DNA of 64,000 nucleotides from Lutraria lutraria. Taxonomy: Eukaryota; Mollusca; Bivalvia; Venerida; Mactridae. The notes under the pieces are model-generated. The model worked only from the letters and a program-made list of their open reading frames with translations. It made no database searches and was not told the DNA's origin. Position numbers and translations under genes: made by a program. Positions 43,459-60,693 of the stretch are shown in pieces. Numbering within the stretch: the first letter of the stretch is position 1; each line of letters begins with the position of its first letter. Location of the stretch: positions 34,698,366 through 34,762,365 of the forward strand of contig OZ026833.1 in NCBI GenBank assembly GCA_964023205.1, read 5' to 3'.

Positions 43459-43716
43459 AGTAGTATATGGCGGTACCCTGGGTACCAAATCAACGTAATT
43501 GGTACCCAGAAGTTTTCAAACTTTGCGCAAATTTGCACAATGTTGTACCCCAAAATAGTATGAAATGGATTTAAGGAATGTTCTGGGTACTGTGTGTGTT
43601 TTGTTATTTGTACTGTATAGACTAAATATTTATTTGAGACAATGAGAGAATTTTCTTTCGAAAAGACATGGTGGCCCTGAAAAGGGCCGTTGGTGGTCCT
43701 GAAAAGGACCGTTGGT
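43459..43716. repeat. Left terminal inverted repeat, 258 bp
   Basis: It matches the reverse complement of 60436-60693 except at 43568 and 43573. The outer part has a GGTACCC-T-GGGTACC palindrome (43472-43486) and three further GGGTACC-like motifs. The inner edge holds two histone-type stem-loops serving the gene at 43723. Confidence 0.97.
43673..43710 (-). terminator. Tandem histone-type 3' stem-loops, left end
   Basis: In the sense of the minus-strand gene ending at 43723, the RNA reads GGTCCTTTTCAGGACC, a 6-nt spacer, then GGCCCTTTTCAGGGCC. Each is a perfect 6-bp stem with a UUUC loop, as in metazoan histone mRNAs, and the flanks ACCAAC and ACCA are also histone-like. GAAAGA lies 14 nt beyond the second stem. 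The first stem begins 12 nt after the stop codon. Confidence 0.85.
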
Positions 43717-43722
43717 GGTTTT

Positions 43723-44313
43723 TTAAACCGTGTTTGCTGACTGATCTGGTTGGGTACATAGTTCGCATTGGCAGTCTGGTGGGGGATAGCAGAGCCTGCA
43801 TGTTGAATCCCCACAGGACCATTCCTGTTCTGGTACTGGTGGTTGTTCCGTGTACTCAACTTGAGCGGTAGTGATGATACGCCAATGCTCTTCTTCTTGT
43901 TGTTGTTCCCGTTGTCTATTCACCGTTCGTTCCCGAGCATCTCGCTGCCTTTCTCTGACTTGATCTCGAAATTGCTCTCGCATTTGAGATAATTCTTCTC
44001 TATGATGAAATCGATTGGTTTCAATGGTATTCAAAGTCTCACCAATGAATTGAAGATCACGTTCCCTTTTTCTAACAATGCTAGCCGCTAAGCGACTGAT
44101 TGAACGCCATACCCTGCTCTGTTTTTCAGTCAGTTGTTTTGCTGTTTTGAGTTCATTGAATAAAGCCTCCATCTTGAGTGTTTGAGTTCTCAGAATGAAA
44201 TGAGGCATTGTATTGTAAGACGGAGTATTTTTCTGTTGAAGCGCCGCCCACTCTCGTGGTTGGATGACGTCATATTGCTTGGATGACGTCACCCTAGGGT
44301 TGGATGGCGTCAC
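43723..44313 (-). CDS. Coiled-coil protein with Cys-rich tail, unknown function
   Basis: The frame is 196 residues if it starts at 44313. The middle (about 45-145) is a long charged helix, probably a coiled coil (ELKTAKQLTEKQSR...REELSQMREQFRDQVRERQR). The C-terminus has six Cys in CGDSTCRLC and CQCELC, possibly a zinc-binding cluster. The first 35 codons overlap three repeats of a TGACGTCATCCAA-like DNA motif that looks like promoter sequence, so Met36 (ATG at 44208, MPHFILRTQ) may be the true start, giving 161 residues. It is the gene nearest the left terminus and ends in the histone-type stem-loops. I recognise no homologue. Confidence 0.7.
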   Translation of the reverse strand: MTPSNPRVTSSKQYDVIQPREWAALQQKNTPSYNTMPHFILRTQTLKMEALFNELKTAKQLTEKQSRVWRSISRLAASIVRKRERDLQFIGETLNTIETNRFHHREELSQMREQFRDQVRERQRDARERTVNRQREQQQEEEHWRIITTAQVEYTEQPPVPEQEWSCGDSTCRLCYPPPDCQCELCTQPDQSANTV

Positions 44314-44321
44314 GCGCCAAT
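44265..44321 (-). promoter_or_regulatory. Triple CRE-like array with CCAAT box
   Basis: TGACGTCA at 44265-44272 and 44284-44291 and TGGCGTCA at 44305-44312 are each part of a TGACGTCATCCAA-type repeat spaced about 20 bp. A CCAAT lies at 44317-44321. They stand 57-105 bp upstream of the alternative ATG at 44208. CREB/ATF-type sites at this regular spacing suggest a promoter. Confidence 0.5.
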
Positions 44322-44399
44322 GTACCGCACAGACATGTGCTTGATTTTTATGAACTTAGAAAAAAGATAACAGACACCTAGTTTCAGTTTTTCTAAACT

Positions 44400-44405
44400 T
44401 TTATT
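44400..44405 (-). terminator. Poly(A) signal for the protease-end transcript
   Basis: AATAAA on the minus strand, 44 nt past the protease stop codon at 44449. It is the only canonical signal between the protease gene and the left-most gene, so the capsid block probably ends here. Confidence 0.55.
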
Positions 44406-44448
44406 TTTGTAACAAGAAAACAGTAACAACATGAAACAGTAACATTGT

Positions 44449-45075
44449 TTAATGATCACCATAAAGAGTTGTATTTCTATGTGTGATACTATGATACAAA
44501 CGGTTGTGACCTTCTGGTCTAGAGTTACGTTGAGCACAACACTTTTGTCCACACTTGTTCACATATTGAGCATGCATGTAATAAGTACCATAATATTGTT
44601 GAAACCAATGCGTCACATAAGTGTCATTTTTTCCATACATGTCCGGTTTGAATCGGGTTAACAGTATCTGGTTCAAGTCACATTCACGTGAGATAAAATC
44701 CAAAGCGAATAGACAATACACACCACACACCGGTAACATATCGCCTTGTATTCTCATGGCATTCCACAGATAAGTTTTGTTGGCATGTTTTTTCACAAAG
44801 GTTAGAATCTCTTCGAAAGGAGGTAATCCGTAGGAATCAAAGTACACTGCTTTATTGTCTTTTAAATAAAGAGCCACCCAGTGTTCTCCACGTTGATTCC
44901 CGTTATGGGTATTCACAATATAGGCTTTCACGTCATGCGGTTTCTCTGAAGGTAATTGATCTTTGGCACAAACACGAGCATGTAGTGGTTTTAATAACGG
45001 TGAATGATCTAATAGGTATTGTAGTTCATTCGTCTCCATAATGCCAATTTCTGTTGACACGTTCAGCCCAAACAC
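44449..45075 (-). CDS. PRO: Adenain-like cysteine protease (virion maturation)
   Basis: Adenain/Ulp1-type proteases process capsid precursors inside the particle. The frame shows GEHWVAL (His65), VYFDSYG (Asp80), Gln110 for the oxyanion hole, and VCGVYC (nucleophile Cys117), in the order and spacing of the C5/C48 fold. The length of about 200 residues suits the family. The first ATG at 45075 lies inside the preceding gene; Met13 (45039, METNELQYLL) also lies within it and aligns better with the usual start of the fold, so I favour Met13. The C-terminus has CGQKCC and many His/Asn. A poly(A) signal follows at 44400. Confidence 0.88.
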   Translation of the reverse strand: MFGLNVSTEIGIMETNELQYLLDHSPLLKPLHARVCAKDQLPSEKPHDVKAYIVNTHNGNQRGEHWVALYLKDNKAVYFDSYGLPPFEEILTFVKKHANKTYLWNAMRIQGDMLPVCGVYCLFALDFISRECDLNQILLTRFKPDMYGKNDTYVTHWFQQYYGTYYMHAQYVNKCGQKCCAQRNSRPEGHNRLYHSITHRNTTLYGDH

Positions 45076-45490
45076 TGATCCATTGATCTATGAACTGATT
45101 CTGAGTGAGTTCTTCTTTAAATTGAATCCATAATCGACACGCGTCTCCTTTTTCACTATCGGTCAAGGTCACTAATTCAGGATACCACTTTTCCATGACC
45201 TTGAACACGTCCAAACGTTGAATCGCTTTTTGAATGTAAAGTTCTGTCCACTCTTCCGTATTCGTGTATAAGCAGAGTACATGTTGTACTTGACTAGGAT
45301 GATTCACTCGACAACCATAACAGTCTTTATGCACTTGATTATAAATTAAAGATTGGAGTGCTTCTGTGACGTGATGATTCAAGCACTCTTGTAAAAAGTC
45401 CGTTCTTGAACTTGTACAACAAGGATACGCCAATAACTTCATTTCGTAATCTTGTCCTTTTTCCAGGTGTTCAATATCCATGTCTTCCAT
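45026..45490 (-). CDS. Conserved Polinton protein with Cys/His zinc-type motif
   Basis: 154 residues. The central CYGCRVNHPSQVQHVLCL has Cys-x2-Cys, then His and a later His and Cys, a probable zinc site. From memory, a similar CxGCxxxHPSQxxH block recurs in small unnamed proteins of other Polintons, so this is likely a conserved family. The gene starts one base after the major capsid stop and overlaps the protease start region, so it belongs to the packed capsid block. The function is unknown. Confidence 0.75.
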   Translation of the reverse strand: MEDMDIEHLEKGQDYEMKLLAYPCCTSSRTDFLQECLNHHVTEALQSLIYNQVHKDCYGCRVNHPSQVQHVLCLYTNTEEWTELYIQKAIQRLDVFKVMEKWYPELVTLTDSEKGDACRLWIQFKEELTQNQFIDQWISVWAERVNRNWHYGDE

Positions 45491-45491
45491 C

Positions 45492-46790
45492 TTAATAATC
45501 TAGAAGCACTTCTCTGAATTGATTGATTTCAATTTGATTGTCGTATTCCGCAAATACAATCACGTTGATGGCTTGTGCAAGTGCTGTTCCAAAGTGAAAT
45601 TCCAATCTCAGATTGCCCGTTTTTATAGGATGGAGTTGACCTTCCTCGCAACCTTGATCTGCTGTCAAGTCCAACCCCCAGAGTGTGTATCCGTTCCGAT
45701 AATCATTCATGCTCAATCCAAATGAACGATTGAGACCAAGAGCTCCTGTCGCTTGATAGAGTGACATGTAGGATCTTAGAACTTCTCCCGTTTCAAAATT
45801 GGGTTGAAACGCTTTGTTATGAATACTTTTTCCGTCAATGCTGACTTCTAGATGATTCAGTGTAAAATGACGGAACTCAAAGGGGTTGGTAGCCATGTCT
45901 CCATTCATGTCTCCATTTCTTACCATACCGATGATAAGACGTTTTGGCAATTGACCTTGAAATAAATGATCTTCAATCTTGGATCGTTGACCGTTAGGAA
46001 TCGTAAATGTTTTTACTTCAGTTCGTCGGATGGGGATTTTCATGTTATGTTGAGCAATCTGTTGATTGAGTTGATTGGCTACCACTGGCAGTAAATCTAC
46101 TGTTCTTACATTAAATCCTGCTTCTAGAAACTTGATTTTACCCGGTGAAGTACTCATGAGACAGAATTGAGGTGACGCTTTGTTTAGTCTTAAGCGTATT
46201 TCCATACCATTGGGTAAATATTTATCTTGCATCATCAGATCCAAATGAAGCCGTCCACATAGTTCCACCACACGACTTTGATGGACACGAGCACGTCTCT
46301 TACCATAGCCCTTGTTATCCCCGTCATGTACTTTTTCGAGCATATGACCAGCGGTGTCTTCAGCCCATAACTCTAACGCCTGAAGCTGAGTGTCTTTACA
46401 GCTTGAGGTGAAGGAGAGTAAATTTTCTATGTATGCCCGATAGGCATACGTGTCCGCATTGCTGGTGATCAGTTTATTATTCAGGTACACATCAATGCTT
46501 GAGAACATGCTGTGAAAGAAATTGTTGACGGTAGCAATTTCACTGTCGCCCGCTAGGTCTGTACCATCTGCCTGTATAATTTTTAGTTTTAGGTACAGGT
46601 AAGATTGATTCAGATCTGTCCATTTTTCTGTCTGTGCAGGAATCACAAATTCAATCGGAGCATTATTGTCCAGGGCAGAAATGGGATAATGCTCAGTCCA
46701 TTGACCTTCTTGCATGGCTGTCATGGTAGGTGGCACAACAGACACATCCAACTCTGTCTTACTACATTCACAGGAACCGTGTTGCATCAT
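45492..46790 (-). CDS. MCP: Major capsid protein, double jelly-roll (hexon type)
   Basis: 432 residues. The order of motifs (PIEFVIPAQTEKWTDLNQSYLYLKLKI, FFHSMFSSIDVYLNNKLI, then RLHLDLMMQDKYLPNGMEIRLRL and a second beta-rich half ending LEFHFGTALAQAINVIVFAEYDNQIEIN) matches what I know as the Polinton/adintovirus major capsid, annotated in invertebrate genomes as F54H12.2-like. Two stacked jelly-rolls per subunit would build the trimeric hexon of an icosahedral shell. The gene lies between the pX-like gene (2-bp gap) and the zinc-motif gene (1-bp gap). Confidence 0.87.
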   Translation of the reverse strand: MMQHGSCECSKTELDVSVVPPTMTAMQEGQWTEHYPISALDNNAPIEFVIPAQTEKWTDLNQSYLYLKLKIIQADGTDLAGDSEIATVNNFFHSMFSSIDVYLNNKLITSNADTYAYRAYIENLLSFTSSCKDTQLQALELWAEDTAGHMLEKVHDGDNKGYGKRRARVHQSRVVELCGRLHLDLMMQDKYLPNGMEIRLRLNKASPQFCLMSTSPGKIKFLEAGFNVRTVDLLPVVANQLNQQIAQHNMKIPIRRTEVKTFTIPNGQRSKIEDHLFQGQLPKRLIIGMVRNGDMNGDMATNPFEFRHFTLNHLEVSIDGKSIHNKAFQPNFETGEVLRSYMSLYQATGALGLNRSFGLSMNDYRNGYTLWGLDLTADQGCEEGQLHPIKTGNLRLEFHFGTALAQAINVIVFAEYDNQIEINQFREVLLDY

Positions 46791-46792
46791 GA

Positions 46793-47158
46793 TTAATCGA
46801 AAATATCAAGAGGTCTGGCCTGCTTAACTCGGCGATGATGAAGTTTCGAATGAGGTCTTTTCTTGACTGGTTTGCTCTTTATACGTCTTTTAGGGCTGGC
46901 CACGGCATGTAGCAAGGATTCACCCACATCTTTTAACACAGAGGCTCCACGTTTTCGTATTACTTGTTTAGCGTTTGATCCTGTCAAGATATCTTTGATA
47001 GCGGCTTTTCCTTGCTGGAGTCCTTCTTTTTTCAAGGTGCGAACTCCAGATTTCACAAATGGATTCAGTAAAGGCATGATTCTTTTCATGGCTTTCTTAA
47101 ACATAGATCCAAGTCCGTGTCCATATTGTCGAGGTTGACCTTGGTAAGTAGGTATCAT
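46793..47158 (-). CDS. Small basic pX-like virion core protein
   Basis: 121 residues, strongly basic. The N-terminus GHGLGSMFKKAMKRIMPLL could form an amphipathic helix. The C-terminus (KRRIKSKPVKKRPHSKLHHRRVKQ) would bind DNA or act as a nuclear localisation signal. Its position between penton and hexon and its composition match the pX-like proteins reported for adintoviruses, named after the adenovirus core peptide. Its ATG overlaps the penton stop as ATGA. The role in DNA packing or membrane disruption is inferred. Confidence 0.7.
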   Translation of the reverse strand: MIPTYQGQPRQYGHGLGSMFKKAMKRIMPLLNPFVKSGVRTLKKEGLQQGKAAIKDILTGSNAKQVIRKRGASVLKDVGESLLHAVASPKRRIKSKPVKKRPHSKLHHRRVKQARPLDIFD

Positions 47159-47997
47159 TGTCTTTGACGTAGGTGTAGTTTCACCATAGACTTCCCATGA
47201 ATAAACTGAATAGACTGGCCAGTGTCACCCCTTATATGGATAGTGATGGTGTCAAAGTCGGCTTTAGCCAGTGGTACATAGTGTAAATTCAAGAACTCGA
47301 AATGAATATGGGGGTTAGTTCCTGCTTTCGTTCTCGGATCAAATGGAGCTACACGTAAGATGGGGGCTTCTATGTTTCCCAAATAGGTATAAGACGCAAG
47401 GTCGGAATAAACAAACAAATGATTATGACCCATGTTAATATCTACGCCATGAGGAAACGGATCTGGAGTGTCTTTAAAAAAGATGGTCGAAGAACTATCA
47501 GGGGCTCCACCCAGTTTAATAAACATGTGAGGATGAAACTGAATGCCTAGTTGATCCGAACTGTCCAGTTTTGCGCGTTTACTTTGTCCTGAAAAACCCA
47601 TGGTAAATCGAAGGCCTTTCTGTCTAAATATTTTACCTAATTGATCTTTCACGGTAAAGTCAATCGTCTCGATCAAATGTTGGGGTGTGACATAAGTTCC
47701 TATAGGAATACAAAGTCGTACACCTTTTTCTTCTTTATTGGGGAGAGTACAATAGGTCTCAAAGTTTTCTAAGGCCTTACCCAGGACAGGATCATGTGTG
47801 ACAATGTAGAAATGTCGCTCTTCTTCAGTGACATTAATGACCTGACTAGGAACAATCATTTCCACTAAGGCAATTTCCCAATCTTGTTTATTGAGATGGA
47901 TGGGTTTTGCCAGTTTGGTACGAAAACAACATTGCGTATTGTCTTGGAATAAATCCATAGAGCTATCACTCATGAGTGTGATGTAAAACGAACTCAT
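47155..47997 (-). CDS. Penton / minor capsid protein, single jelly-roll
   Basis: 280 residues. It begins SFYITLMSDSSMDLFQDNTQCCFRTKLAKPIHLNKQDWEIALVEMIVP, a form characteristic of Polinton minor capsid proteins, with predicted beta strands throughout and the C-terminal INFxFLNLHYVPL-like region (HFEFLNLHYVPLAKADFDTITIHI). Pentons close the icosahedral vertices. It overlaps the small membrane protein gene upstream by ATGA and the pX-like gene downstream by ATGA, which suggests co-translation from one message or very dense promoters. Confidence 0.85.
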   Translation of the reverse strand: MSSFYITLMSDSSMDLFQDNTQCCFRTKLAKPIHLNKQDWEIALVEMIVPSQVINVTEEERHFYIVTHDPVLGKALENFETYCTLPNKEEKGVRLCIPIGTYVTPQHLIETIDFTVKDQLGKIFRQKGLRFTMGFSGQSKRAKLDSSDQLGIQFHPHMFIKLGGAPDSSSTIFFKDTPDPFPHGVDINMGHNHLFVYSDLASYTYLGNIEAPILRVAPFDPRTKAGTNPHIHFEFLNLHYVPLAKADFDTITIHIRGDTGQSIQFIHGKSMVKLHLRQRQ

Positions 47998-48281
47998 GTT
48001 GATTTAGGTTTATTGAATTTCAAGGAGGGATTCGGTAGAATATAACCTAGAGAACTACTTAAAAGCAGAAGCCACAATTCTCGATCGGGTCGTTGAAAAC
48101 ACAAATTAAATAGCGATACGGTAATAATAATAAATACCACTACAATTTGTGCAAAAAAAGTGACCTTATTTTTGGGTTCACACAATTTGGTTTGCTCTGA
48201 GGCAGTCACTACCACACTGGCCGTATCGGTTTGAGACATGATGTATTTATTAACTAAACGAGATGGGATTCGGGAATCCAA
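47994..48281 (-). CDS. Small two-helix membrane protein
   Basis: 95 residues from 48281, or 81 from Met15 (48239, MSQTDTAS), which I prefer because the upstream part overlaps the integrase 3' end. Two hydrophobic segments are visible, VTFFAQIVVVFIIITVSLFNL (about 40-60) and LWLLLLSSSLGYIL (about 69-82), with charged residues between. It could be an inner membrane component of the virion or an egress factor. I recognise no family. The stop codon overlaps the penton ATG. Confidence 0.6.
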   Translation of the reverse strand: MDSRIPSRLVNKYIMSQTDTASVVVTASEQTKLCEPKNKVTFFAQIVVVFIIITVSLFNLCFQRPDRELWLLLLSSSLGYILPNPSLKFNKPKST

Positions 48282-49348
48282 CTGTCAAATTTCGAAGGAT
48301 AACCTTTCCAATGTACTTTAATTTCACGTCTTCCGTCTACCTTACTCTGGCGATGTGCGAGCACTGATTCAATTTCATAGATAGCATCATCTTTTATAAC
48401 CTGTACTTCAGAGAAATAAAACGAACCCAAAATGGGTTCTCCGTCTAAATCAGTCAATTTCACAGTAGCAGGAGAGGTCTTTTTGACTTGGATCACTTTA
48501 AACAGTTCAGTGGTCCAGTTGGGTAGATAACCTTTATCAAATGTACGTTTTGTTTTATTGATACGAACAATATCTCCCACATGAAGGGTCGTCGACGCTT
48601 TTTTTCTTGATTTTCCATACAAGGTCAAGGCCACTTGAGATTCGTTATTCTCATTTACGGATACGGGTGCCATTTGTATACTACGATGAACACGATGATT
48701 ATAGGCATGCACGAGATCAGACAATACCTGAATATACCTTCGTGTTTTATGATGCGTAAAGTATTTCCACATGCGTGATTTTAAGGTCCGTTGAAAACGT
48801 TCCACTATACTAGCCTTCGTTTCTGGGTTTTCAGTCGTAAAATAATGAATCCCTACTTTGTCTAAAAACTGTTGAAACCTTTGATTCTTGAATTCTGTTC
48901 CTTTATCGGTTTGCAACGCTTTAGGTTGTCTCGTTTTAAGAATAGAGCGAAACGCTTCCACCAATGTGAGCCCCGTTTTATCCTTGAGGGGAACGACCCA
49001 AGCATATTTTGAAAACACGTCAATGACACACAACAAATATCGATAAGGGGTGTTGTACTGAGCCAAGGATTGCATGTCTGCCAAATCAGCTTGCCATTGA
49101 TGATCAATACCACCCACAATCGTTTTCCGTCTCGAGAATACCCTACGGATAGGTTTGTGCAGGGTATAGGTCTTTTGTCCCTTCAACCAGGATCGCACTT
49201 GACTTGGCGTAATGGATTTCAGTTGAGTTCGAGCTGCTGTAGTAAGACGTTCTACCCCACCAAAACCAGCCGGATGATGGGGATCATAATAAATCTGATG
49301 TAACAGACTGTCTACCTTTTTGTTCATGTTGTCTAGTAGGCTTCCCAC
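48254..49348 (-). CDS. INT: Polinton integrase with C-terminal chromodomain
   Basis: 364 residues. A zinc-binding-type N-terminal region (about 20-60) is followed by the rve core with Asp88 (WQADLADM), Asp148 (LQTDKGTEF) and Glu183 (IVERFQRTLKSRMW); 34 residues between the last two give the classical DDE(35) spacing. After an SH3-like region (LHVGDIVRINKTKRTF), residues about 317-364 form a chromodomain (YEIESVLAHRQ...EIKVHWKGYPSKFDSWIPESHLV), which in related elements is thought to steer integration to histone-marked chromatin. All key residues are present. The 6-bp target duplication fits this enzyme. It overlaps the gene upstream by 16 bp. Confidence 0.95.
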   Translation of the reverse strand: MGSLLDNMNKKVDSLLHQIYYDPHHPAGFGGVERLTTAARTQLKSITPSQVRSWLKGQKTYTLHKPIRRVFSRRKTIVGGIDHQWQADLADMQSLAQYNTPYRYLLCVIDVFSKYAWVVPLKDKTGLTLVEAFRSILKTRQPKALQTDKGTEFKNQRFQQFLDKVGIHYFTTENPETKASIVERFQRTLKSRMWKYFTHHKTRRYIQVLSDLVHAYNHRVHRSIQMAPVSVNENNESQVALTLYGKSRKKASTTLHVGDIVRINKTKRTFDKGYLPNWTTELFKVIQVKKTSPATVKLTDLDGEPILGSFYFSEVQVIKDDAIYEIESVLAHRQSKVDGRREIKVHWKGYPSKFDSWIPESHLV

Positions 49349-50082
49349 TTAGGTTCTGCTTTCATCTGTTTGACAGGTTTACTTATAGGTTCTGCTTTCA
49401 TCTGTTTGGCAGGTTTACTTATAGGTGAACGAGGCTCAACAAAACTATCAAAGAATTCATCATCTTCCTCCGAATCGTCTGCTTTTTGCATCCATGACCA
49501 TCTCCGTTTATTTCCTATCGCTTCTTGTGGTACATTGACATCTCTTAGTCCACTAGAAAACTGTTCCCATCCTCTAGGCTCCGACCCTTTTCTATGACGT
49601 ATGACATCATTGACCAAATCAATAATGTTGGATCCTTGTATTGGTTTTCCATGGTATTCCAACATCCCTTGATCATTCCATGACATGTGGGGATGATTTT
49701 GTAGAAAGTGTAATAAAAGCTGAGTTTTTCGACGCATAGTAGTAGGAACACTTTCAAGAATCCGATCCGTCAATGTAGCAGGAGCCGCTTGTGCACCTTG
49801 AGCAGCTGGAACAACCGGTGCAGCCGGTGCAACGGGTGCAGCCAGAGTAGCCGGTTCACGTGCTTTTTGATGAGACAGTTGAAACTTTTGCAAGACTTGT
49901 CCATAGTGTTGTGCTTTTTCTGATTCAGACAACGATTCATTTTGTAATACGTCTCCCATTTGTTTCTGTAAATCGGATGTTTGACTGACTTGCGGGGGAG
50001 GAGGTAAACGTGGTCGTTGTTCTGTTTTCCATCGATTCATCTCTTCTAGCATTTTGAACGGGACGATAGCCATTTTCTTCAT
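49333..50082 (-). CDS. Polinton-conserved protein of unknown function (virion candidate)
   Basis: 249 residues. The N-terminus MAIVPFKMLEEMNRWK is followed by a Pro-rich stretch, an Ala/Pro linker (AAPVAPAAPVVPAAQGAQAAP), and a folded module about 105-150 (RKTQLLLHFLQNHP...WNDQGMLEYHGKPIQGSNIIDLVNDVIRHRK). The last part is acidic and then carries two copies of ISKPxKQMKAEP. I recall the same N-terminal and central motifs in unnamed Polinton proteins from other animals, but no function. It overlaps both neighbours by a few bases. Confidence 0.7.
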   Translation of the reverse strand: MKKMAIVPFKMLEEMNRWKTEQRPRLPPPPQVSQTSDLQKQMGDVLQNESLSESEKAQHYGQVLQKFQLSHQKAREPATLAAPVAPAAPVVPAAQGAQAAPATLTDRILESVPTTMRRKTQLLLHFLQNHPHMSWNDQGMLEYHGKPIQGSNIIDLVNDVIRHRKGSEPRGWEQFSSGLRDVNVPQEAIGNKRRWSWMQKADDSEEDDEFFDSFVEPRSPISKPAKQMKAEPISKPVKQMKAEPKWEAY

Positions 50083-50450
50083 AGCTTTTTCACCAGTGTG
50101 GCAACACCTCCACTGAGTGCTCCTGCAGCAACAGCTTTAGCAATGATTGGAGCAAGAGCCAGTAATGGAAATAATCCTCCTTTTTGATTCAACACACGTT
50201 TCTTTTTTTGAATGGATACTCTTTTATCTGCTAAAGTGCGGAGATGTTGACGCTTGGACTTCAACCTTTGCTTTTGAGAGGGGGATAAGGCAACATTGCC
50301 TTTTAAAACATTCTGACAGCATTCTGACACACATTGAATCATTTCTTTAGATGCTCCATGTATCATCTTTCTTCTTAACCCATCTGGGGCTTGAGTTAAA
50401 CCCAAAACCAGATGTCCGTATTTATGCAGGAGTGGTCTCTTTGGTGCCAT
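50079..50450 (-). CDS. Basic protein with hydrophobic tail, Polinton-conserved
   Basis: 123 residues. A helical basic domain (VSECCQNVLKGNVALSPSQKQRLKSKRQHLRTLADKRVS) is followed by QKGG and a hydrophobic Ala/Gly-rich tail (LALAPIIAKAVAAGALSGGVATLVKKL) that could insert into a membrane. The same layout of helices, then a K-x-GG turn, appears in the N-terminal 115 residues of the next gene upstream, so the two are probably paralogues. A TATAAAAG overlapping the neighbouring stop codon (50486-50495) is a likely promoter. A virion-internal membrane-active role is a guess. Confidence 0.65.
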   Translation of the reverse strand: MAPKRPLLHKYGHLVLGLTQAPDGLRRKMIHGASKEMIQCVSECCQNVLKGNVALSPSQKQRLKSKRQHLRTLADKRVSIQKKKRVLNQKGGLFPLLALAPIIAKAVAAGALSGGVATLVKKL

Positions 50451-50485
50451 TATGTCAAATAATACCTGTTTTTACTTCTTTACAG

Positions 50486-50495
50486 CTTTTATACT
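50486..50495 (-). promoter_or_regulatory. TATA box overlapping a stop codon
   Basis: The minus strand reads AGTATAAAAG, including the TAA that ends the gene at 50489. It stands 36-45 nt upstream of the ATG at 50450. Confidence 0.5.
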
Positions 50496-51598: not shown

Positions 51599-51631
51599 GA
51601 TGACTGAATGATCTTATATGAGTAAACGATG

Positions 51632-53037: not shown

Positions 53038-53657
53038 ATCACTATTCTAGGTCGATTCGCATGAACGGCTTCAATCTCGTGTTTGACTTCTCTTAAGCGA
53101 TGCCTTAATTTATAGAACACGGCACGATACTGTAGAATATGAATAACATGAGTGAACGGTACCTGTCTCTTAAATACCATGATACCACGTATTTTAAACT
53201 GTGAATACGGACGCCATCCGGGGTGAGATCTCCCATTGTCCTCTTCAGCCATACTGAACCATATCACATTGGGGGTAGAACGAAAATTGTTAGCTAAGGC
53301 AGATACGTCGCTCAAATTAGCATCGTGGATTAAAAAATCCCATGTCGTAGATAACATACGATCTAAGCTTTGTTGTACCACATTCAGTTTTCGTAGAATC
53401 GGTAATTTTTGGTTGAATGACAAGTCCTGGCGATCACCTACATCCTTCAACAGTCTCTCTATCCGTCGATGATTTGTATGTTGTAAGCTATGTATAGCAT
53501 TATGAGTAGCCCATGTGTGCACTAACTCCATCTTCCATGTTTTAGCGTTAGCCCATATGACATAACGATAAATTTTAAGTCTCAGCTCTATCGGTAGTAA
53601 GGGTATCCAATCCATGTCTTTATGAATAATGACTTTTAGATGACTTGTTCTAGTCAT
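52989..53657 (-). CDS. Unknown protein with F-box-like N-terminus
   Basis: 222 residues. WIPLLPIELRLKIYRYVIW (about 17-35) resembles the first helix pair of F-box domains (LPxELxxKI), which would link a target to an SCF ubiquitin ligase; this is only a motif-level resemblance. The rest is helical and basic, ending RPRIVICSGNIQLWLNHLDDL. The 17 bp between the polymerase stop and this ATG contain TGACCTTGACCTTTT, a tandem nuclear-receptor half-site. Confidence 0.55.
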   Translation of the reverse strand: MTRTSHLKVIIHKDMDWIPLLPIELRLKIYRYVIWANAKTWKMELVHTWATHNAIHSLQHTNHRRIERLLKDVGDRQDLSFNQKLPILRKLNVVQQSLDRMLSTTWDFLIHDANLSDVSALANNFRSTPNVIWFSMAEEDNGRSHPGWRPYSQFKIRGIMVFKRQVPFTHVIHILQYRAVFYKLRHRLREVKHEIEAVHANRPRIVICSGNIQLWLNHLDDL

Positions 53658-53677
53658 TACCTAAAAGGTCAAGGTCA
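53658..53677 (-). promoter_or_regulatory. Tandem AGGTCA half-sites between polymerase and next gene
   Basis: The plus strand reads AAGGTCAAGGTCA (about 53665-53677), two nuclear-receptor half-sites with the TCAAGGTCA extended form. The position, directly before the ATG at 53657, makes this a candidate promoter element. Confidence 0.4.
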
Positions 53678-56600
53678 GTCATGTAGATAACCATATGGCA
53701 CAGTCATATGATTCTCGACCACAATACGTTTGGTATACACCGAACGAAATGTTTTGACTTGTTTCTCACTGGTCACGGTTCTGTCCTTATGACGTTTAAT
53801 CCGAGAAGCATATTCAACTACGGTCGAATAATGATGTCTGTCTTTCACACAATCCACCATCGTATTGAAATTCACTTGTTGAGTGGCATTGTAGTCTAAC
53901 GTAATGCCTTTCACTTTGCAATTTTGATGGAGTTCACCGTTTTCAATGTATTCATAGCCATAGTTCTTTGGACCTAAAGCGACATATCTCACAATACGAC
54001 CCTTTGGTACCTCATCTGTCCATTTTCCCAATCGACTGGAGATAATAGGAACATTATAGCCATCAGGGTCATGAATGTACATACAACTGTCTGTGTCAAA
54101 ATACAATACTCTCTTTCCTAGAGGTTCAAGCACTTTGTACAGTTCTAATCGAGCATAAGCCGTCACAAATGAAGCCACCACAGGATTGGCTGATGAATGA
54201 GGGTCTGCTTTGTCCGATTCATCAGTGTAATTCATTAACATGAATTCATCATGATCAAAACACTCTACATATTTCACAGACTTTTTAGGATCGTTCAGTA
54301 TTCCGTAGAACTGGTCCAATCGATGAACATACTCTGTTTTAGGCAAGAGGTTGGTTTGAGCATTTTTGCCCCAGAGACAATTCAGCATGGTTTTGGCAAA
54401 AGCTCGTTTTCCTGGATTTTTCTCCACCTGTTGCAAACGAATTCCTTCAGCTTCAAAATAATCCTGTTTAAATTTATCTTGAGCCTCTTCCGTATCCACC
54501 CCTGGAGGATATCCACTAGCCTCTTGTTTCATTTTCAAGTATTTGTCAATGTATTGCCGATAGACGTCCGTACTCCATTCATCCCAGTGCCATACATGAT
54601 ACACTTTTGATACTTGATAGCCTAAAGCAATAGCTTTAGCCAATTCAACATGAGTCCATGTGCCATACAAGAACCGTTCATACGGTGAATGTGTACAATA
54701 ATCCATCTCCTTCTCAGCACAGGTACGGCATAGCGTAAACACCATTTTGCTATTACAGTGTATGGGTAAGACAGGCATCCATAAATCTTGCGGGGGTAGA
54801 ACACGGCATTTAATCAGTCCTTTGTATTTCTCAATATGCTGTTGATCAATTTGTTCTTGACTCATGATCACTGGATGGCCTATCGGATAAGTCCTGTACT
54901 TGTTCACATACGGATAGAGAGAACAAATATCCACATATTTGATTTCTTGGTCGTTGTCTACTTCATGATACAGTCGAACGGCATTCGTACGACCTCCGAA
55001 CAAAGCTTCCCTGGGTTGTATCGGTTCTTGACCATGATAGAATCGTTCCACTCTTGTCTTATAGGCAGGATCCTTTTGACAACGCTGATCAAATTCACAT
55101 TCCCACATGACCACAACAGGGTACCCCTGTTCTTTCAAAGACTCCAGTCGTTTATACGTATCGTGATAGGCCTGTTGCATGCTTCTCAAAGTATACGGAT
55201 TGATGGTACTTCGGTTAGGAAAACAGGTGGGGCACCCATGGTACCAACATCCCATGAATTCATACACGGTGTTGGTCTCTTGACAATAGCCATCCACGTA
55301 ATAAGGTCCAATTTTGACTTCGCCTTTGTTATTCAAGGCATGCCGAATATGTATCTCTTCGGTGACAGCCATCATTTGTAGCCAACGTATGCCTTTCATG
55401 GAATACCGGGTTTTATTGGGATACCCGGCATCCGAAATCACGGCTAAACTATGAGGCGGCATGGAATTTTTGCGCCAGGCTTTGTTACACACTTGAGCTA
55501 ATGTGGTAGCTTCAGTAAATGGATCTATTTGATCACTTTCCAATAATTGTTGACGAAATTCTCCACACCCGCGTCTTAAAATGTCCACATCCGATTGACA
55601 GTATTTCTCCATTTCCTTTTGAAAATCAAATACGTCACCTTTTCTTTCATTGTACCAGGTTAAAAACTCTTCACGTCGCTCTGGTTTCATACTATCCGGT
55701 TTGTAAAAGTGTAGCGGCAAATAAGGTCCCACATAATCTTGATACTCTAGGGTGTTTGCATAGAATGGAAACCATCCTTTGGCTAACTCGGTCAGTCCAA
55801 ATGTATTGGGAAAACCGGAGAGAGGCATACTCAGGAAACTGAGGGAGTCAATCATGCGTATTCCATGCACTCTCAATTGAATGATTTTACTACCATTCAT
55901 AATCAACTGGGGTTTCGCCGTCCCCTGAGTGAGCACATATCTAAGAATAAACTGAGCGTCATAGCCTTGAGCATTGTGGGCTATCACTGTCGATCCTCGA
56001 TGGGTAGGGAGAAATAGCCAAGTACAGAATTGTTGTAACGTATTTTCACCACGGAATGTCATTTGTCTGGCTTCATTCACCTCTTCACAATACTCACATG
56101 GAGCTTTCACTGACTTACACATACAGTCACCACAAGCACGTTGAGCCACACAAAAATTAGGGATATGTTCTCCAGAATCAAAACGACATTCAAAATCAAA
56201 AAAGATGAATGGTACTTCTGGTTGTTTTCTATCGGGTGGTTCATACGTTGGAATGTAACAGTCATGATCTGGTCCTACTATGGCTTTACAACACCTGCAT
56301 TTCTTTGTCCCTGGGCAAACGTGACTCCGTTTCGTTTCAATCACCTTTTGCCCACATTTCTTACAATTCCATACGGATTCACAAATGGTTTTACGTTGTT
56401 TTCCCGTTTTTGTTTTATGATTGTCAAAACATGCCTGACTCTGGAATAGGCGACGACAATCTGGACATCTTATAGATTGTCCTGCTGGGCACAGGGTGTG
56501 AGCATAACACTGACAAATATGGCTACACTGGTGTCCTTCACGGTGATCATAACTGATATCGCACCATTCACAATAATAACTCCTTCCGAGAAATCCGGTA

Positions 56601-57466
56601 ATGGATACGATACAGTCATAATGATTATCATGGTGAAAGATATGAATCACACGACTTTTTTCAGTCATAGCAGGTGGTTTGAATAACAATTCACTTCCAT
56701 AATGTTGTGGATGGATTTTAATCACATAGCCTGGATAGAGATAGTCCTGTAGTTTTTGGTATTCTTCTATACCGCACGACTGATCCGATGAAATACCCAC
56801 TTGCTTCAACAATGCTTCAGCTTCGTATTTTTGAAGATTTTTCTTAGAGCGACGTACATAATTCCATCGTTTTTTCCATTCCGGGGCTTGATTTTCATGT
56901 ACTTTACACCGTCCTACCACAATCGATCTAGCTAAACACATAGAGTCCTTACTATTGTCAATACACACAACACTTGTCTTTGACTTCCGCATACTGGATA
57001 AGTTTGGTGCTTTAAACGTTTTCTTTCCGGTTCCCTGTGGCATAGCAATATGCGTAATTTCCATCTGTGCCGCCCCATCATGAATTTTAAATTGACGGTT
57101 ACTTTGTGCCACACGTTCAATTTCATCCAACAATGTATCTCCACTAATACGAGATGCCCTATTAAACGGAACATGTATTCCAAAGTCCAAATCAGGATGT
57201 AGAATAGATACTCGAACTCGATCATTCGACTTCACTTCACATCTCTTGTAGAGCTGATCCATCATATCATTAAACACCCTGTTTGTAAATTCAAACGATT
57301 GATTATACGGCTGAAATGTCACATCATATACTCTAGATTGAGTCTTGAATTTTCTTGACTTTCTTTCCATGCGTGACTGTATGTTATAATAGTCGCTCAC
57401 AGGCTCAAACTTACTTCGTTTAGTTGGAGGTTCATCCTCACCACTAGTACTGTCGGTATCTGACAT
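53675..57466 (-). CDS. POLB: Protein-primed family B DNA polymerase
   Basis: The open frame runs from 57532 (1,285 residues), but a TATA box lies at 57494-57503, so I start at Met23 (57466, MSDTDSTSGED), giving 1,263 residues. Numbered from the longer frame: exonuclease motifs Asp446/Glu448 (FFDFEC), IAHNAQGYD (517-525) and YCQSDVD (644-650); polymerase motifs DICSLYP (868-874), Lys1047...NCLWGK, and YFDTDS (1144-1149). All catalytic residues are present. Upstream of these, residues about 192-315 (DSMCLARSIVV...HDNHYDCIVS) look OTU-protease-like, and 320-430 hold several Cys/His zinc clusters. A segment at 746-815 (VDGYC...GCWYHGCPTC...WECEFD) resembles VSR-type endonucleases. It would replicate the linear genome from protein-capped ends. 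Confidence 0.95.
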   Translation of the reverse strand: MSDTDSTSGEDEPPTKRSKFEPVSDYYNIQSRMERKSRKFKTQSRVYDVTFQPYNQSFEFTNRVFNDMMDQLYKRCEVKSNDRVRVSILHPDLDFGIHVPFNRASRISGDTLLDEIERVAQSNRQFKIHDGAAQMEITHIAMPQGTGKKTFKAPNLSSMRKSKTSVVCIDNSKDSMCLARSIVVGRCKVHENQAPEWKKRWNYVRRSKKNLQKYEAEALLKQVGISSDQSCGIEEYQKLQDYLYPGYVIKIHPQHYGSELLFKPPAMTEKSRVIHIFHHDNHYDCIVSITGFLGRSYYCEWCDISYDHREGHQCSHICQCYAHTLCPAGQSIRCPDCRRLFQSQACFDNHKTKTGKQRKTICESVWNCKKCGQKVIETKRSHVCPGTKKCRCCKAIVGPDHDCYIPTYEPPDRKQPEVPFIFFDFECRFDSGEHIPNFCVAQRACGDCMCKSVKAPCEYCEEVNEARQMTFRGENTLQQFCTWLFLPTHRGSTVIAHNAQGYDAQFILRYVLTQGTAKPQLIMNGSKIIQLRVHGIRMIDSLSFLSMPLSGFPNTFGLTELAKGWFPFYANTLEYQDYVGPYLPLHFYKPDSMKPERREEFLTWYNERKGDVFDFQKEMEKYCQSDVDILRRGCGEFRQQLLESDQIDPFTEATTLAQVCNKAWRKNSMPPHSLAVISDAGYPNKTRYSMKGIRWLQMMAVTEEIHIRHALNNKGEVKIGPYYVDGYCQETNTVYEFMGCWYHGCPTCFPNRSTINPYTLRSMQQAYHDTYKRLESLKEQGYPVVVMWECEFDQRCQKDPAYKTRVERFYHGQEPIQPREALFGGRTNAVRLYHEVDNDQEIKYVDICSLYPYVNKYRTYPIGHPVIMSQEQIDQQHIEKYKGLIKCRVLPPQDLWMPVLPIHCNSKMVFTLCRTCAEKEMDYCTHSPYERFLYGTWTHVELAKAIALGYQVSKVYHVWHWDEWSTDVYRQYIDKYLKMKQEASGYPPGVDTEEAQDKFKQDYFEAEGIRLQQVEKNPGKRAFAKTMLNCLWGKNAQTNLLPKTEYVHRLDQFYGILNDPKKSVKYVECFDHDEFMLMNYTDESDKADPHSSANPVVASFVTAYARLELYKVLEPLGKRVLYFDTDSCMYIHDPDGYNVPIISSRLGKWTDEVPKGRIVRYVALGPKNYGYEYIENGELHQNCKVKGITLDYNATQQVNFNTMVDCVKDRHHYSTVVEYASRIKRHKDRTVTSEKQVKTFRSVYTKRIVVENHMTVPYGYLHD

Positions 57467-57575: not shown

Positions 57576-57926
57576 ATGAGCGATCCTAAAATGAACCAAG
57601 TTGAAGAGAACCGAGATCAAACTTTGATGTATTCATTAAAGAAGAAAATTAAAGAGCTTAACAACTTAGCGGATCAGCTCTGTGGACAGAAAAATGTAAC
57701 ATGGGATCATATCAAGTGTTATCGTTGTGGAAAGAAAGGACATTATTCTACCAGCTGTACGGAACCCTTCAACAATGAATGCTTTTATTGTCATGAACAA
57801 GGACATTTCATCGCAGACTGTCCTAAGAAACAAGGTGAACAGGTCGATCTACAGGACGCAGAACAGAGTAAGAAAAAACGTAAATACAAAAAGAATCCAA
57901 CAAAAACTGTGAGTGACTTTGTGTAA
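57576..57926 (+). CDS. CCHC double zinc-knuckle nucleic-acid-binding protein
   Basis: 116 residues. A probable coiled coil (YSLKKKIKELNNLADQL) is followed by two perfect CCHC knuckles, CYRCGKKGHYSTSC and CFYCHEQGHFIADC (C-x2-C-x4-H-x4-C), then a Lys-rich tail (KKKRKYKKN). Knuckles of this form bind single-stranded nucleic acid, as in retroviral nucleocapsids and CNBP. Divergent partner of the polymerase gene, so a replication accessory or single-strand-binding role is plausible. AATAAA at 58031 is the likely poly(A) signal; no histone-type stem-loop follows in this sense. Confidence 0.85.
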   Translation: MSDPKMNQVEENRDQTLMYSLKKKIKELNNLADQLCGQKNVTWDHIKCYRCGKKGHYSTSCTEPFNNECFYCHEQGHFIADCPKKQGEQVDLQDAEQSKKKRKYKKNPTKTVSDFV

Positions 57927-58030: not shown

Positions 58031-58036
58031 AATAAA
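58031..58036 (+). terminator. Poly(A) signal for the zinc-knuckle gene
   Basis: AATAAA, 105 nt after the stop codon, in the convergent gap before the stem-loop of the opposite-strand gene. Confidence 0.55.
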
Positions 58037-58101: not shown

Positions 58102-58117
58102 GGCCCTAATAAGGGCC
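58102..58117 (-). terminator. Single histone-type 3' stem-loop
   Basis: The minus strand reads GGCCCTTATTAGGGCC, a perfect 6-bp stem with a UAUU loop, flanked by CCCAAC and ACCAT. It starts 10 nt after the stop codon of the gene at 58128-58352. The loop differs from UUUC but keeps U at loop positions 1 and 3. No clear purine motif lies 14 nt downstream; CAAGCAAAGAC is further away. Confidence 0.65.
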
Positions 58118-58127: not shown

Positions 58128-58352
58128 TTATTGCATTTCTGCAAGAAATAAGTAACGCCAATAGTTGGCTCTCAAATCCTCATCATAAAAGATGGCAAGG
58201 TCAGGGTATAAATTACCCATCTTGATATCCATCTTCACTTCTACACATGCATCTTGGAATTCAGACAAGTCTGGGTACAAATTACCCATCTTGACCACCC
58301 AAACATCTTCTTGTTCAGGTTCATCAGAAGAACTTTTCAAGCAGTTGCCCAT
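58128..58352 (-). CDS. Myristoylation-type mini-protein with two LYPDL motifs
   Basis: 74 residues. MGNCLKSSS is a strong N-myristoylation signal (Gly2, Ser/Lys-rich) with Cys4 available for palmitoylation. The first seven residues equal those I recall for the host membrane-anchored E3 ligase RNF11. An acidic linker follows, then KMGNLYPDL twice (residues 21-29 and 44-52). LYPxL is the known ALIX-binding late-domain motif used by viruses to recruit ESCRT. The protein thus looks like a minimal membrane-anchored ESCRT adaptor for egress or membrane remodelling; this is inference from motifs. It diverges from the gene at 58550 across four CCAAT boxes and ends in a histone-type stem-loop. Confidence 0.75.
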   Translation of the reverse strand: MGNCLKSSSDEPEQEDVWVVKMGNLYPDLSEFQDACVEVKMDIKMGNLYPDLAIFYDEDLRANYWRYLFLAEMQ

Positions 58353-58410
58353 GTTGAATCATGAAACATAAATGAGCTATGGAACATGAGAAAAACACTG
58401 ACCTAGAACA

Positions 58411-58494
58411 GACCAATGAAATGCCAGTAAAATAGACCAATGAAATGCCGTTAAAATAGACCAATGAAATACCGTTAAAATGGACCAATCAGAG
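58411..58494. promoter_or_regulatory. Four CCAAT boxes at 24-bp period, divergent promoter
   Basis: GACCAATGAAATGCCGTTAA-type units place CCAAT at 58413, 58437, 58461 and 58485. They lie between the genes at 58352 (minus) and 58550 (plus), about 60 bp from each ATG. No TATA box is visible on either side. GTGACCTTGCC at about 58512 is a nuclear-receptor-like half-site nearer the plus-strand gene. NF-Y-type CCAAT arrays are common in histone and other S/G2-phase promoters. Confidence 0.65.
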
Positions 58495-58549
58495 TCCTTG
58501 TATCATATGAGAGTGACCTTGCCTTGATCTAATTTCATTCTGTATCAAG

Positions 58550-58873
58550 ATGTCACAGAGAACAGTCAACATTATCAAAAGAAAATATGCCGCCTTAGGG
58601 CAGTATATAGAGCAGCTGGAAATGCAACTAGAAGAGCTGCGGTTGGAGGTGAAGACCCTGAGAGAGGGGAAGAAGTTTGCAGAGGAGGTTGTGGTCAGCT
58701 CTGGGGAAGAGGACTGGGGGGATACCCCTCAAGAATCAACCCCAGAGAACTGGGAAGATGAACTGGTAGAGGTTCCTTCGAACCTCTACCAACCTACACC
58801 GGACCCCAAGGATGTCCAGAAATGGGACAAGTGGTGTCCCGCTTGTATGGGGAGATGCGGTCAACGCCATTAA
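58550..58873 (+). CDS. Coiled-coil acidic protein with Cys tail, unknown
   Basis: 107 residues. Residues about 5-45 form a convincing coiled coil (YAALGQYIEQLEMQLEELRLEVKTL). The middle is acidic (SSGEEDWGDTPQ) with casein-kinase-like sites. The C-terminus is WCPACMGRCGQRH, a small Cys/His cluster. I recognise no family. The coiled coil plus C-terminal Cys cluster recalls the layout of the left-most gene, without clear sequence identity. Tandem histone-type stem-loops begin 20 nt after the stop. Confidence 0.7.
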   Translation: MSQRTVNIIKRKYAALGQYIEQLEMQLEELRLEVKTLREGKKFAEEVVVSSGEEDWGDTPQESTPENWEDELVEVPSNLYQPTPDPKDVQKWDKWCPACMGRCGQRH

Positions 58874-58883: not shown

Positions 58884-59005
58884 AGCACCAACGGTCCTTT
58901 TCAGGACCACCAACGGCCCTTTTCAGGGCCCCCATACAATTCAGAAAGAATCACTCTCATATTGTCAATATTTACAGTCCTATCTGATAACACCAAATAC
59001 AAATA
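58884..59005. repeat. Diverged internal copy of the inner terminal repeat
   Basis: Beyond the stem-loops, the sequence GAAAGAATCACTCTCATATTG and the following AATATTTA...ACAAATA stretch align with the right terminal repeat from 60484 to about 60550, with many substitutions and small gaps. So more than the hairpins is shared. Confidence 0.65.
58893..58930 (+). terminator. Tandem histone-type 3' stem-loops, internal copy
   Basis: GGTCCTTTTCAGGACC at 58893-58908 and GGCCCTTTTCAGGGCC at 58915-58930, with the same 6-nt spacer as in the terminal repeats. CCCCA follows the second stem and GAAAGA begins at 58944, 14 nt downstream, the place of a histone downstream element. Confidence 0.85.
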
Positions 59006-59035
59006 GACGGTGTGAGGTAAGTTAAACATTTCCTA

Positions 59036-59500
59036 CAAATATAAGTGATAGTATGATGTGTACAATCATTTTCAACAAATATAAGTGCTGTGATGTACAA
59101 AGTATTTCCCCCACAAATATAAGTGTTAGTATGTGATGTACAATCATTTTCAACAAATGTCTGCAAATTGCTGTGATAGTATTAAGTGTACAGTCTGCAA
59201 AGTGCTGTGATAGTATTAAGTGTACAGTCTGCAAAGTGCTGTGATAGTATAATGTGTACAGTGTTCAAATTGCTGTGATAGTATAATGTGTACAGTCTGC
59301 AAAGTGCTGTGATAGTATAATGTGTACAGTATTCAAATTGCTGTGATTGTATAATGTGTACAGTCTGCAAAGTGCTGTGATAGTATAATGTGTACAGTGT
59401 TCAAATTGCTGTGATAGTATAATGTGTACAGTCTGCAAAGTGCTGTGATAGTATAATGTGTACAGTATTCAAATTGCTGTGATTGTATAATGTGTACAAA
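59036..59500. repeat. 34-bp tandem repeat upstream of the last gene
   Basis: Units starting CTGCAAAGTGCTGTGATAGT recur at 59161, 59195 and 59229 and onward in 34-bp steps, ending in AATGTGTACAGT. Alternate units begin GTTCAAATTG or ATTCAAATTG, making a 68-bp higher-order pattern. Before 59161 are longer diverged relatives with CAAATATAAGTG. The array has no coding role and sits where an enhancer would. Confidence 0.9.
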
Positions 59501-59514
59501 GCATATCTACAATA

Positions 59515-59667
59515 TAACCTTGACCTTGACGTGTCAAACACTTGTTAAAAAAACTTGAAGTGTCACACTTGTAAAAACTTGAAGTGTCACACGTATTCAA
59601 AAAAACTTCTCACAATTGACCTTGACCTAATAGAACACTGGCGCGTGCAGGCAAAAAGTATAAATAC
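59515..59667 (+). promoter_or_regulatory. Promoter with TGACCTTGA sites and TATA box
   Basis: CCTTGACCTTGACG at about 59518 and TTGACCTTGACC at about 59617 each carry a reverse-strand TCAAGGTCA nuclear-receptor site. GTATAAATA at 59658-59666 is a strong TATA box about 36-44 nt upstream of the ATG at 59702. The two AACTTGAAGTGTCACAC repeats between them may also be sites. Confidence 0.6.
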
Positions 59668-59701
59668 CCCCGGCGCAGACACTATTTTTTCATTATCTAG
59701 C

Positions 59702-60415
59702 ATGGAGTCCTTCAACATGCCATACGATATATTGAGAGAAGCACTAGAATCATCTGAGTTGATAGACCCGAATGCGGGTATGCATTACAACCAGCCGAAG
59801 TACAACCAGCCAAAGTACGGTCAACTACAGTATAGGCAGCCACAGTACAGCCAATACAGTCAACCACTGTACAACCAATACAGTCAACAGTCCATGGTAG
59901 ATGTACAGCCTGAGGTAGATGTACAGCCGATACAACCCATGGTAGATGTACAACCCACTATGACGAATACACAACCCATGGTAGATGTACAACCCACTAT
60001 GACGAATACACAGCCCTCTATGACGAATACACAGCCTATGGTAGATGTACAACCCACTATGACGAATACACAGCCCCCTATGGCGAATACACAGCTTATG
60101 ACGGATAAACAGTCTATTACAAAGCCTACAACGGGATTGTCTGTTCTACAAGGTATCAGGGAAGAAATGGTACAGATGAATCAAGTCATGCAAGAGATGG
60201 TCAGACTCATGAAGAATCAAGAAGTACGGTTTAAACCACAAGAAATGATTGTACCTGTACAGTTTATGTATGATTCAAAGAAACGAAAACATGAGCATGA
60301 GAAAAAGAAACCGGAGCATGACAAAAAGAAACCGGAGATGACAGAAACGAAGAAACGAAAACATGATCTTGAGAAACAACCTCGGGGCAAGTATGGTAAA
60401 GAAATAAAGAAATGA
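59702..60415 (+). CDS. Repeat-rich protein with basic tail, unknown function
   Basis: 237 residues from ATG at 59702, chosen because the TATA box at 59658 lies inside the longer frame that opens at 59555. After MESFNMPYDILREALESSEL comes a Tyr/Gln/Pro segment of YNQPKY-type repeats, then tandem PMVDVQPTMTNTQ repeats (about 65-130). A helical segment follows (LQGIREEMVQMNQVMQEMVRLMKNQ, heptad-like), and a Lys-rich tail (KKRKHEHEKKKPEHDKKKPE) that looks like a nuclear localisation signal. The low-complexity half could phase-separate or act as a scaffold; that is speculation. Tandem histone-type stem-loops begin 27 nt after the stop, inside the right terminal repeat. Confidence 0.72.
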   Translation: MESFNMPYDILREALESSELIDPNAGMHYNQPKYNQPKYGQLQYRQPQYSQYSQPLYNQYSQQSMVDVQPEVDVQPIQPMVDVQPTMTNTQPMVDVQPTMTNTQPSMTNTQPMVDVQPTMTNTQPPMANTQLMTDKQSITKPTTGLSVLQGIREEMVQMNQVMQEMVRLMKNQEVRFKPQEMIVPVQFMYDSKKRKHEHEKKKPEHDKKKPEMTETKKRKHDLEKQPRGKYGKEIKK

Positions 60416-60435
60416 AGATCCGACTAACAGTCACA

Positions 60436-60693
60436 ACCAACGGTCCTTTTCAGGACCACCAACGGCCCTTTTCAGGGCCACCATGTCTTTTCGAAAGAAA
60501 ATTCTCTCATTGTCTCAAATAAATATTTAGTCTATACAGTACAAATAACAAAACACACACAGTACCCAGAACATTCCTAAAATTCATTTCATACTATTTT
60601 GGGGTACAACATTGTGCAAATTTGCGCAAAGTTTGAAAACTTCTGGGTACCAATTACGTTGATTTGGTACCCAGGGTACCGCCATATACTACT
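60436..60693. repeat. Right terminal inverted repeat, 258 bp
   Basis: Reverse complement of 43459-43716 with mismatches only at 60579 and 60584. It ends CCATATACTACT at the target duplication. Confidence 0.97.
60442..60479 (+). terminator. Tandem histone-type 3' stem-loops, right end
   Basis: GGTCCTTTTCAGGACC (60442-60457) and GGCCCTTTTCAGGGCC (60464-60479) in the sense of the gene ending at 60415. ACCA follows directly and GAAAGA starts at 60493, 14 nt after the second stem. Sequence and orientation relative to the transcript equal those at the left end. Confidence 0.85.

Follow-up and report, generated by a model that had tools for sequence, protein, structure and literature searches.

How are the mRNAs of a virus-like mobile element given their 3' ends? 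We examined this for a Polinton (Maverick) in the bivalve Lutraria lutraria, which lies within a 64,000-nt stretch of contig OZ026833.1 (assembly GCA_964023205.1, forward-strand positions 34,698,366 to 34,762,365; hereafter the window). Four accessory genes of this element carry, shortly past their stop codons, hairpins of the kind that ends histone mRNAs (Table 1). With a probability of roughly 0.8, judged from sequence comparison, we read these hairpins as working histone 3'-end signals, by which the accessory genes would use host SLBP/U7 processing and yield tail-less mRNAs linked to S phase.

Hairpins past the accessory genes

The window was scanned for perfect 6-bp stems starting with GG and enclosing a 4-nt loop. 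The scan showed seven such hairpins in the whole 64 kb, all in mRNA sense and all 10-48 nt past the stops of the four accessory genes. A preliminary description of this DNA had placed them after the stops at 43723, 58128, 58873 and 60415, and all were seen at those places and in that orientation; its expectation that such hairpins would not be equally frequent away from gene ends was borne out, as none of the seven lies elsewhere in the window. Three of the four genes carry a tandem pair, GGTCCTTTTCAGGACC and then GGCCCTTTTCAGGGCC with 22 nt from start to start, and the fourth carries a single GGCCCTTATTAGGGCC. As exact strings, GGYYCTTTTCAGRRCC was found at six sites of the window and GGCCCTTATTAGGGCC at one. 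Allowing up to three mismatches to the hairpin pattern gave 13 matches against 2.39 expected, a number reached by 0 of 100 shuffles.

Searching the window with cmscan returned RF00032, the metazoan histone 3' stem-loop family, as the top match at all four sites (35.8, 35.8, 31.7 and 31.0 bits; E 1e-6 to 6.3e-5) and as the sole Rfam family with E < 1, which agrees with the earlier assignment of the stems and loops to the histone type. GAAAGA follows the second stem after 13 intervening nt at all three double sites, at the left site as well as at the two plus-strand sites, as had been described, and CA stands 3-4 nt past the last hairpin (ACCA or CCCA). At accessory genes 2 and 3, where the next 300 nt contain neither AATAAA nor ATTAAA, the hairpin is the sole visible 3'-end signal. 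No perfect GG-stem hairpin was seen within 300 nt past the stop of the CCHC gene or of any of the 15 open reading frames (ORFs) in the core array. The four accessory products gave no histone Pfam match at E <= 0.001, and by this measure none of them encodes a histone.

Host histone genes, element copies and distant relatives

The host histone cluster was located on C6 (47 PF00125 matches in the genome), with a repeat of mostly ~6.8 kb. Our comparison rests on one repeat unit (L070), in which H3, H4, H2B, H2A and H1, named from their translations and with the H3 product confirmed by Pfam, all lie on one strand. A hairpin stands 28-31 nt past the stop of each of the five genes; it reads GGCCCTTTTTAGGGCC in all four core-histone genes and GGTCCTTTTCAGGACC in H1. 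The first hairpin of the element is letter for letter that of host H1, and the second joins the core-histone stem to the H1 loop. RF00032 scores were 30.5-34.5 bits for the six host hairpins of this unit, one of them at or above the gathering score, and 31.0-35.8 bits for the element. Where GAAAGA stands in the element, 13 nt past the hairpin, host H2A reads GAAAGT and H3 reads GAGACT, while H4 (GAATAG), H2B (CGACTG) and H1 (ATGTTG) have weaker purine cores. A short-word blastn of the unit against the element gave, among the matches listed, only 17-21-nt matches at the hairpins, so no larger captured piece of a histone gene was seen among them. The host also has an SLBP RNA-binding domain: two pieces of it lie on C10 and score 60.9 and 34.5 bits, against a cut-off of 27. 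The common animal hairpin form GGYTCTTTTMAGARCCACC had 0 exact matches in the host genome, in line with the host stems GGCCC and GGTCC.

In the 728.5-Mb assembly containing the window, RF00032 gave at least 44 matches at E <= 0.001; this is a lower bound, as scoring covered 75 of 131,090 first-look candidates, and the 44 do not include the sites in the window itself. Five of these matches belong to an array on C12, and all 24 inspected among the other 39 were copies of the window's Polinton family. Exact matches to CCAACGGYCCTTTTCAGGRCC numbered 1,872 (955 + 917), with 0 for the reversed control. The 567 first-look candidates for PolB copies included 37 that were scored, all 99-100% identical and 35 of them without a stop. 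The family is therefore young, probably with several hundred copies. When 20 of the 37 copies were checked, the window's excluded, the 58128-type hairpin was intact in 20/20, the first gene-3 hairpin in 20/20 and the second in 19/20; the copies are near-identical, so this retention says little about selection. In more diverged copies, the second hairpin of gene 3 had C-G, U-G or U-A as its third pair. Across 17 fetched 10-kb Polinton regions (L022-L038), 45 of the 46 perfect GG-stem hairpins were of the element type, and cmscan of 13 of these regions gave an RF00032 match above gathering in every one.

Searching with a PolB alignment (A1; 25 of 120 homologues listed from 1,415) found three Polinton contigs (L001, L002 and L003) in bacterial metagenome-assembled genomes (MAGs), which are titled Nocardioides, Bacteroidia and Poribacteria. 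Since these are animal-type Polinton polymerase genes in bacterial MAGs, the contigs are probably eukaryotic contamination. L002, whose PolB is ~35% identical to that of the element, has an RF00032 match of 35.8 bits 28 nt past the stop of an 89-aa C2H2 zinc-finger ORF, with AAAAAGAGA after a further 13 nt; no other perfect GG-stem hairpin occurs in the 8.9 kb of L002, and AATAAA stands further downstream. Besides the window family, the histone-type signal was found in one of the three contaminant loci. Searches of IMG/VR by ATPase, by PolB alignment (25 proteins) and by capsid-family alignment (14) found no relatives. Two hairpin-pattern searches there gave 0 and 5 stretches; the five were put down to chance, being a near-identical non-palindromic stretch with no RF00032 match at E <= 0.1 and no match to a window protein at E <= 0.01. 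Overall, RF00032, the letters and spacing of the host histone hairpins, the multi-copy family and one distant relative strongly support the claim of the preliminary description that Polinton genes carry histone-type 3' processing signals.

Two further observations concern the host. Some H3 genes at C6:25056817-25088553 are ~15.7 kb apart, compared with the usual ~6.8 kb, which indicates extra DNA between units. The array on C12 (~22.87-22.92 Mb; L019-L021) was first taken as the host histone cluster and proved to be a non-histone tandem gene, with ~1.5-kb units that each hold a 109-aa ORF. Its units carry GGCCCTTTTCAGAGCC, a histone-like hairpin that has a single C.A mismatch and that stands, in the unit for which the distance was taken, 39 nt past the stop; RF00032 scored 29.4-31 bits at five places, below gathering. 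The 109-aa protein has 227 relatives, including several with close locus numbers in Mya arenaria (82%) and others in Pinctada, and the array may represent a tandem gene of bivalves whose mRNA has a 3' end of the histone type.

Proposed 3'-end formation and its alternatives

Histone mRNAs are linked to S phase. The element carries the parts of the SLBP/U7 pathway at the host's distances, and it is on this basis that we read SLBP and U7 as the makers of the accessory mRNA ends. In passages of a published account, SLBP binds the stem-loop, U7 snRNA base-pairs through its 5' end to the downstream element, and the cut between the two is made by CPSF73 (PMC7026596). For the accessory mRNAs we infer cleavage, absence of poly(A), U7 pairing and cell-cycle coupling along the same lines. 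Host SLBP would bind the hairpin on transcripts of the four genes, and the host U7 snRNP would pair with GAAAGA at the double sites. The pre-mRNA would be cut a few nt past the second hairpin, where CA stands, leaving the hairpin in place of a poly(A) tail, and the accessory mRNAs would accumulate during host DNA replication. The core array and the CCHC gene would use ordinary AATAAA signals, and the AATAAA in the terminal inverted repeats (TIRs) would serve as a fail-safe; according to excerpts of two papers, some histone genes use poly(A) signals that lie within the downstream element or past it (PMC9756948, PMC6303110).

Several results weigh against this reading. The RF00032 gathering score of 34 is reached at two of the four window sites, GAAAGA was looked for past the hairpin of the gene at 58128 and is absent, and the weak purine cores in host H4, H2B and H1 blur the host's own U7 rule. 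The TIR double sites also carry AATAAA ~39 nt beyond their second hairpin. The left and right double sites represent a single TIR sequence (Table 1), and the inner double site has a 44-nt block identical to the TIR site. As the double sites are copies of one another, and the hairpin past the gene at 58128 differs in its loop and represents a form of its own, the four genes rest on about two hairpin lineages within the element. The second gene-3 hairpin is damaged in one of the 20 younger copies and lost in an older copy (L027), and another older copy (L032) has lost the second gene-1 hairpin; both older copies keep the first. No hairpin was found in L001 (8.5 kb, several ORF ends) or in L003 (3.6 kb, mostly PolB).

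The hairpins might be passengers, stemming from a single capture of a histone-type end that then multiplied through TIR duplication and gene conversion, with the mRNAs polyadenylated at AATAAA. The 44-nt block common to the double sites, the presence of one copy in both TIRs and the AATAAA downstream in the TIRs all fit such a history, and the copies are young, so that their retention carries little information. However, the 300 nt past two of the hairpin genes contain neither AATAAA nor ATTAAA, and beyond the 44-nt block 7 of 13 spacer bases differ between the TIR site and the inner site, while GAAAGA and its spacing are kept. Third-pair changes preserve pairing, no histone sequence is left beyond the hairpin (among the matches listed), and the same design recurs in the distant Polinton L002; we consider passengers unlikely. 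A role of the hairpins as DNA, as recombination, replication or terminal-protein features of the TIRs, would suit the two of three double sites that lie within TIRs, but two sites outside them each stand directly past a stop in mRNA sense, and the flanks and loop fit the RNA model RF00032 and equal those of host histone hairpins, which makes this role very improbable.

In giant viruses and virophages, hairpins mark the ends of transcripts, and the element could have its own hairpin-triggered transcript ending, unrelated to histone processing. This seems scarcely credible, since the hairpin letters are those of host H1 and a U7-type element stands at the same offset as in host H2A; the 20 ORFs scanned, most of which had no Pfam match, also showed no RNA polymerase or RNA-processing Pfam domain. 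That the hairpins act mainly as decoys competing for host SLBP/U7, with 3'-end formation secondary, could be argued from the 1,872 element-type hairpins in the genome against 12 full-length H3 matches in the host cluster. Yet they sit at processing distance on protein-coding genes, together with a downstream element that a decoy does not need, and we see hardly any likelihood in this explanation.

We favor processing of the accessory mRNAs by host SLBP and U7. If this is true, a virus-like element is a non-histone client of that machinery and has a simple way of timing its genes to host DNA replication. It would also explain why poly(A)-selected RNA-seq fails to pick up such mRNAs, and the host coupling of Polintons would be directly testable. 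A broader proposal, which we hold tentatively and with slightly less than even confidence, is that animal Polintons disguise their accessory genes by giving them the 3' end of a histone gene, where an H1-type and core-type tandem with a U7 element would give tail-less, S-phase-limited mRNAs. Such elements could also compete for SLBP/U7, with more than 1,800 element hairpins in one genome, far above the number on its histone genes.

The element and known systems

Table 1. Positions of the Polinton, its genes and its candidate 3'-end signals in the window
Feature	Position	Strand	Remarks
Target duplication CGTATG	43453-43458 and 60694-60699		6 bp
Whole Polinton	43459-60693		17,235 bp; from TIR ends, 6-bp duplication and length
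Left TIR	43459-43716		258 nt, 2 mismatches to right TIR; inverted-repeat scan agrees; contains left hairpin pair
AATAAA past left hairpins	43629-43634	-	possible fail-safe poly(A) signal
Gene 1 GAAAGA	43654-43659	-	candidate histone downstream element (U7 site); 13-nt gap past hairpin
Gene 1 second hairpin GGCCCTTTTCAGGGCC	43673-43688	-	34 nt after stop; RF00032 35.8 bits
Gene 1 first hairpin GGTCCTTTTCAGGACC	43695-43710	-	12 nt after stop; identical to host H1 hairpin
Accessory gene 1	43723-44208	-	161 aa, coiled-coil-like, Cys-rich C end; no Pfam match at E <= 0.001
AATAAA past last core-array ORF	44400-44405	-	begins 44 nt after last array stop
Core array	44449-57466	-	15 ORFs without hairpins
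Putative protease ORF	44449-45039	-	core array
Putative capsid protein ORF	45492-46790	-	core array
Integrase ORF	48254-49327	-	core array
ATPase ORF	51633-52280	-	core array
PolB ORF	53675-57466	-	core array
CCHC zinc-knuckle gene	57576-57926	+	without hairpin
AATAAA past CCHC gene	58031-58036		begins 105 nt after CCHC stop
Gene 2 single hairpin GGCCCTTATTAGGGCC	58102-58117	-	no GAAAGA past it; RF00032 31.0 bits
Accessory gene 2	58128-58352	-	74 aa, starts MGNC; no AATAAA/ATTAAA in next 300 nt
Accessory gene 3	58550-58873	+	107 aa, coiled-coil-like; no AATAAA/ATTAAA in next 300 nt
Gene 3 first hairpin GGTCCTTTTCAGGACC	58893-58908	+	
Gene 3 second hairpin GGCCCTTTTCAGGGCC	58915-58930	+	RF00032 31.7 bits
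Gene 3 GAAAGA	58944-58949	+	candidate U7 site; 13-nt gap
Accessory gene 4	59702-60415	+	237 aa, repetitive, basic C end
Right TIR	60436-60693		258 nt, 2 mismatches to left TIR; contains right hairpin pair
Gene 4 first hairpin GGTCCTTTTCAGGACC	60442-60457	+	
Gene 4 second hairpin GGCCCTTTTCAGGGCC	60464-60479	+	RF00032 35.8 bits
Gene 4 GAAAGA	60493-60498	+	candidate U7 site; 13-nt gap
AATAAA past right hairpins	60518-60523	+	

The element has the long TIRs and the 6-bp target duplication of a Polinton/Maverick. Pfam showed a viral/organellar-type family B polymerase (PolB, PF03175, 129 bits), an integrase with rve and chromodomain, and an A32-like packaging ATPase (Pox_A32, 34.2 bits). Two further core-array ORFs, which we take to encode the capsid protein and the protease, had no Pfam match. 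At E <= 0.001, 433 relatives of the putative capsid protein were found, and it also matches L002; the closest named relative of this capsid-family protein, from Mercenaria, has 72% identity; the putative protease matches one L002 ORF (E 5e-9). For PolB the closest named relatives among the matches listed came from oysters, with up to 47% identity; like Mercenaria, and like Mya for the C12 array gene, these are bivalves, in keeping with the host.

Between the divergently oriented accessory genes 2 and 3 (58353-58549) stand four CCAAT boxes with 24-nt spacing (58413-58489), the highest count for any 197-nt segment of the window, and one of them reads GGACCAATCAG, like a box upstream of host H3. 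A histone-pair-like divergent promoter for these two genes was considered and dropped, as the five host histone genes share one strand and CCAAT boxes are common. A 34-nt tandem repeat array lies between genes 3 and 4 (59091-59566). Elsewhere in the window, the left end (1-7248) consists of 1,533-nt tandem repeats whose first units are 99-100% alike, and a nested repeat array of 14-nt units with a period of ~110 nt runs from 12143-13131 onward.

Searches of the open full-text literature, which leaves most subscription papers and bioRxiv preprints outside its coverage, found no report of histone-type 3' ends in Polintons or adintoviruses, the broader ones being judged by the titles and opening lines of abstracts among the papers listed; this is consistent with the preliminary description, which knew of none. 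In excerpts of two papers on bivalve genomes (PMC10294476, PMC8905726), Mavericks are mentioned with no reference to stem-loops or histones. The element resembles Polintons/Mavericks and adintoviruses in its PolB, rve-chromodomain integrase, A32-like ATPase, putative capsid-family protein, 6-bp target duplication and TIRs, and differs from them by the histone-type 3' ends on its accessory genes. Mimivirus and virophage transcripts likewise have a hairpin at the transcript end, in relatives of Polintons, but those hairpins vary in sequence and their transcripts carry poly(A) tails, whereas the element hairpin is short, fixed in sequence and host-like. The metazoan replication-dependent histone 3' end shares with the element the 6-bp stem, the 4-nt loop, AAC before and ACC(A) after the hairpin, a purine core ~13 nt past the stem and a place right past the stop codon. 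However, the element genes encode no histone, three of the four have tandem hairpins, and they lie in a mobile element and partly in its TIRs. As far as an excerpt of PMC9756948 describes them, histone genes of the H2AC18 type are alike in combining a stem-loop and a downstream element with an AATAAA usable as a fail-safe; in H2AC18 the AATAAA overlaps the downstream element, whereas in the Polinton TIRs it stands ~20 nt beyond.

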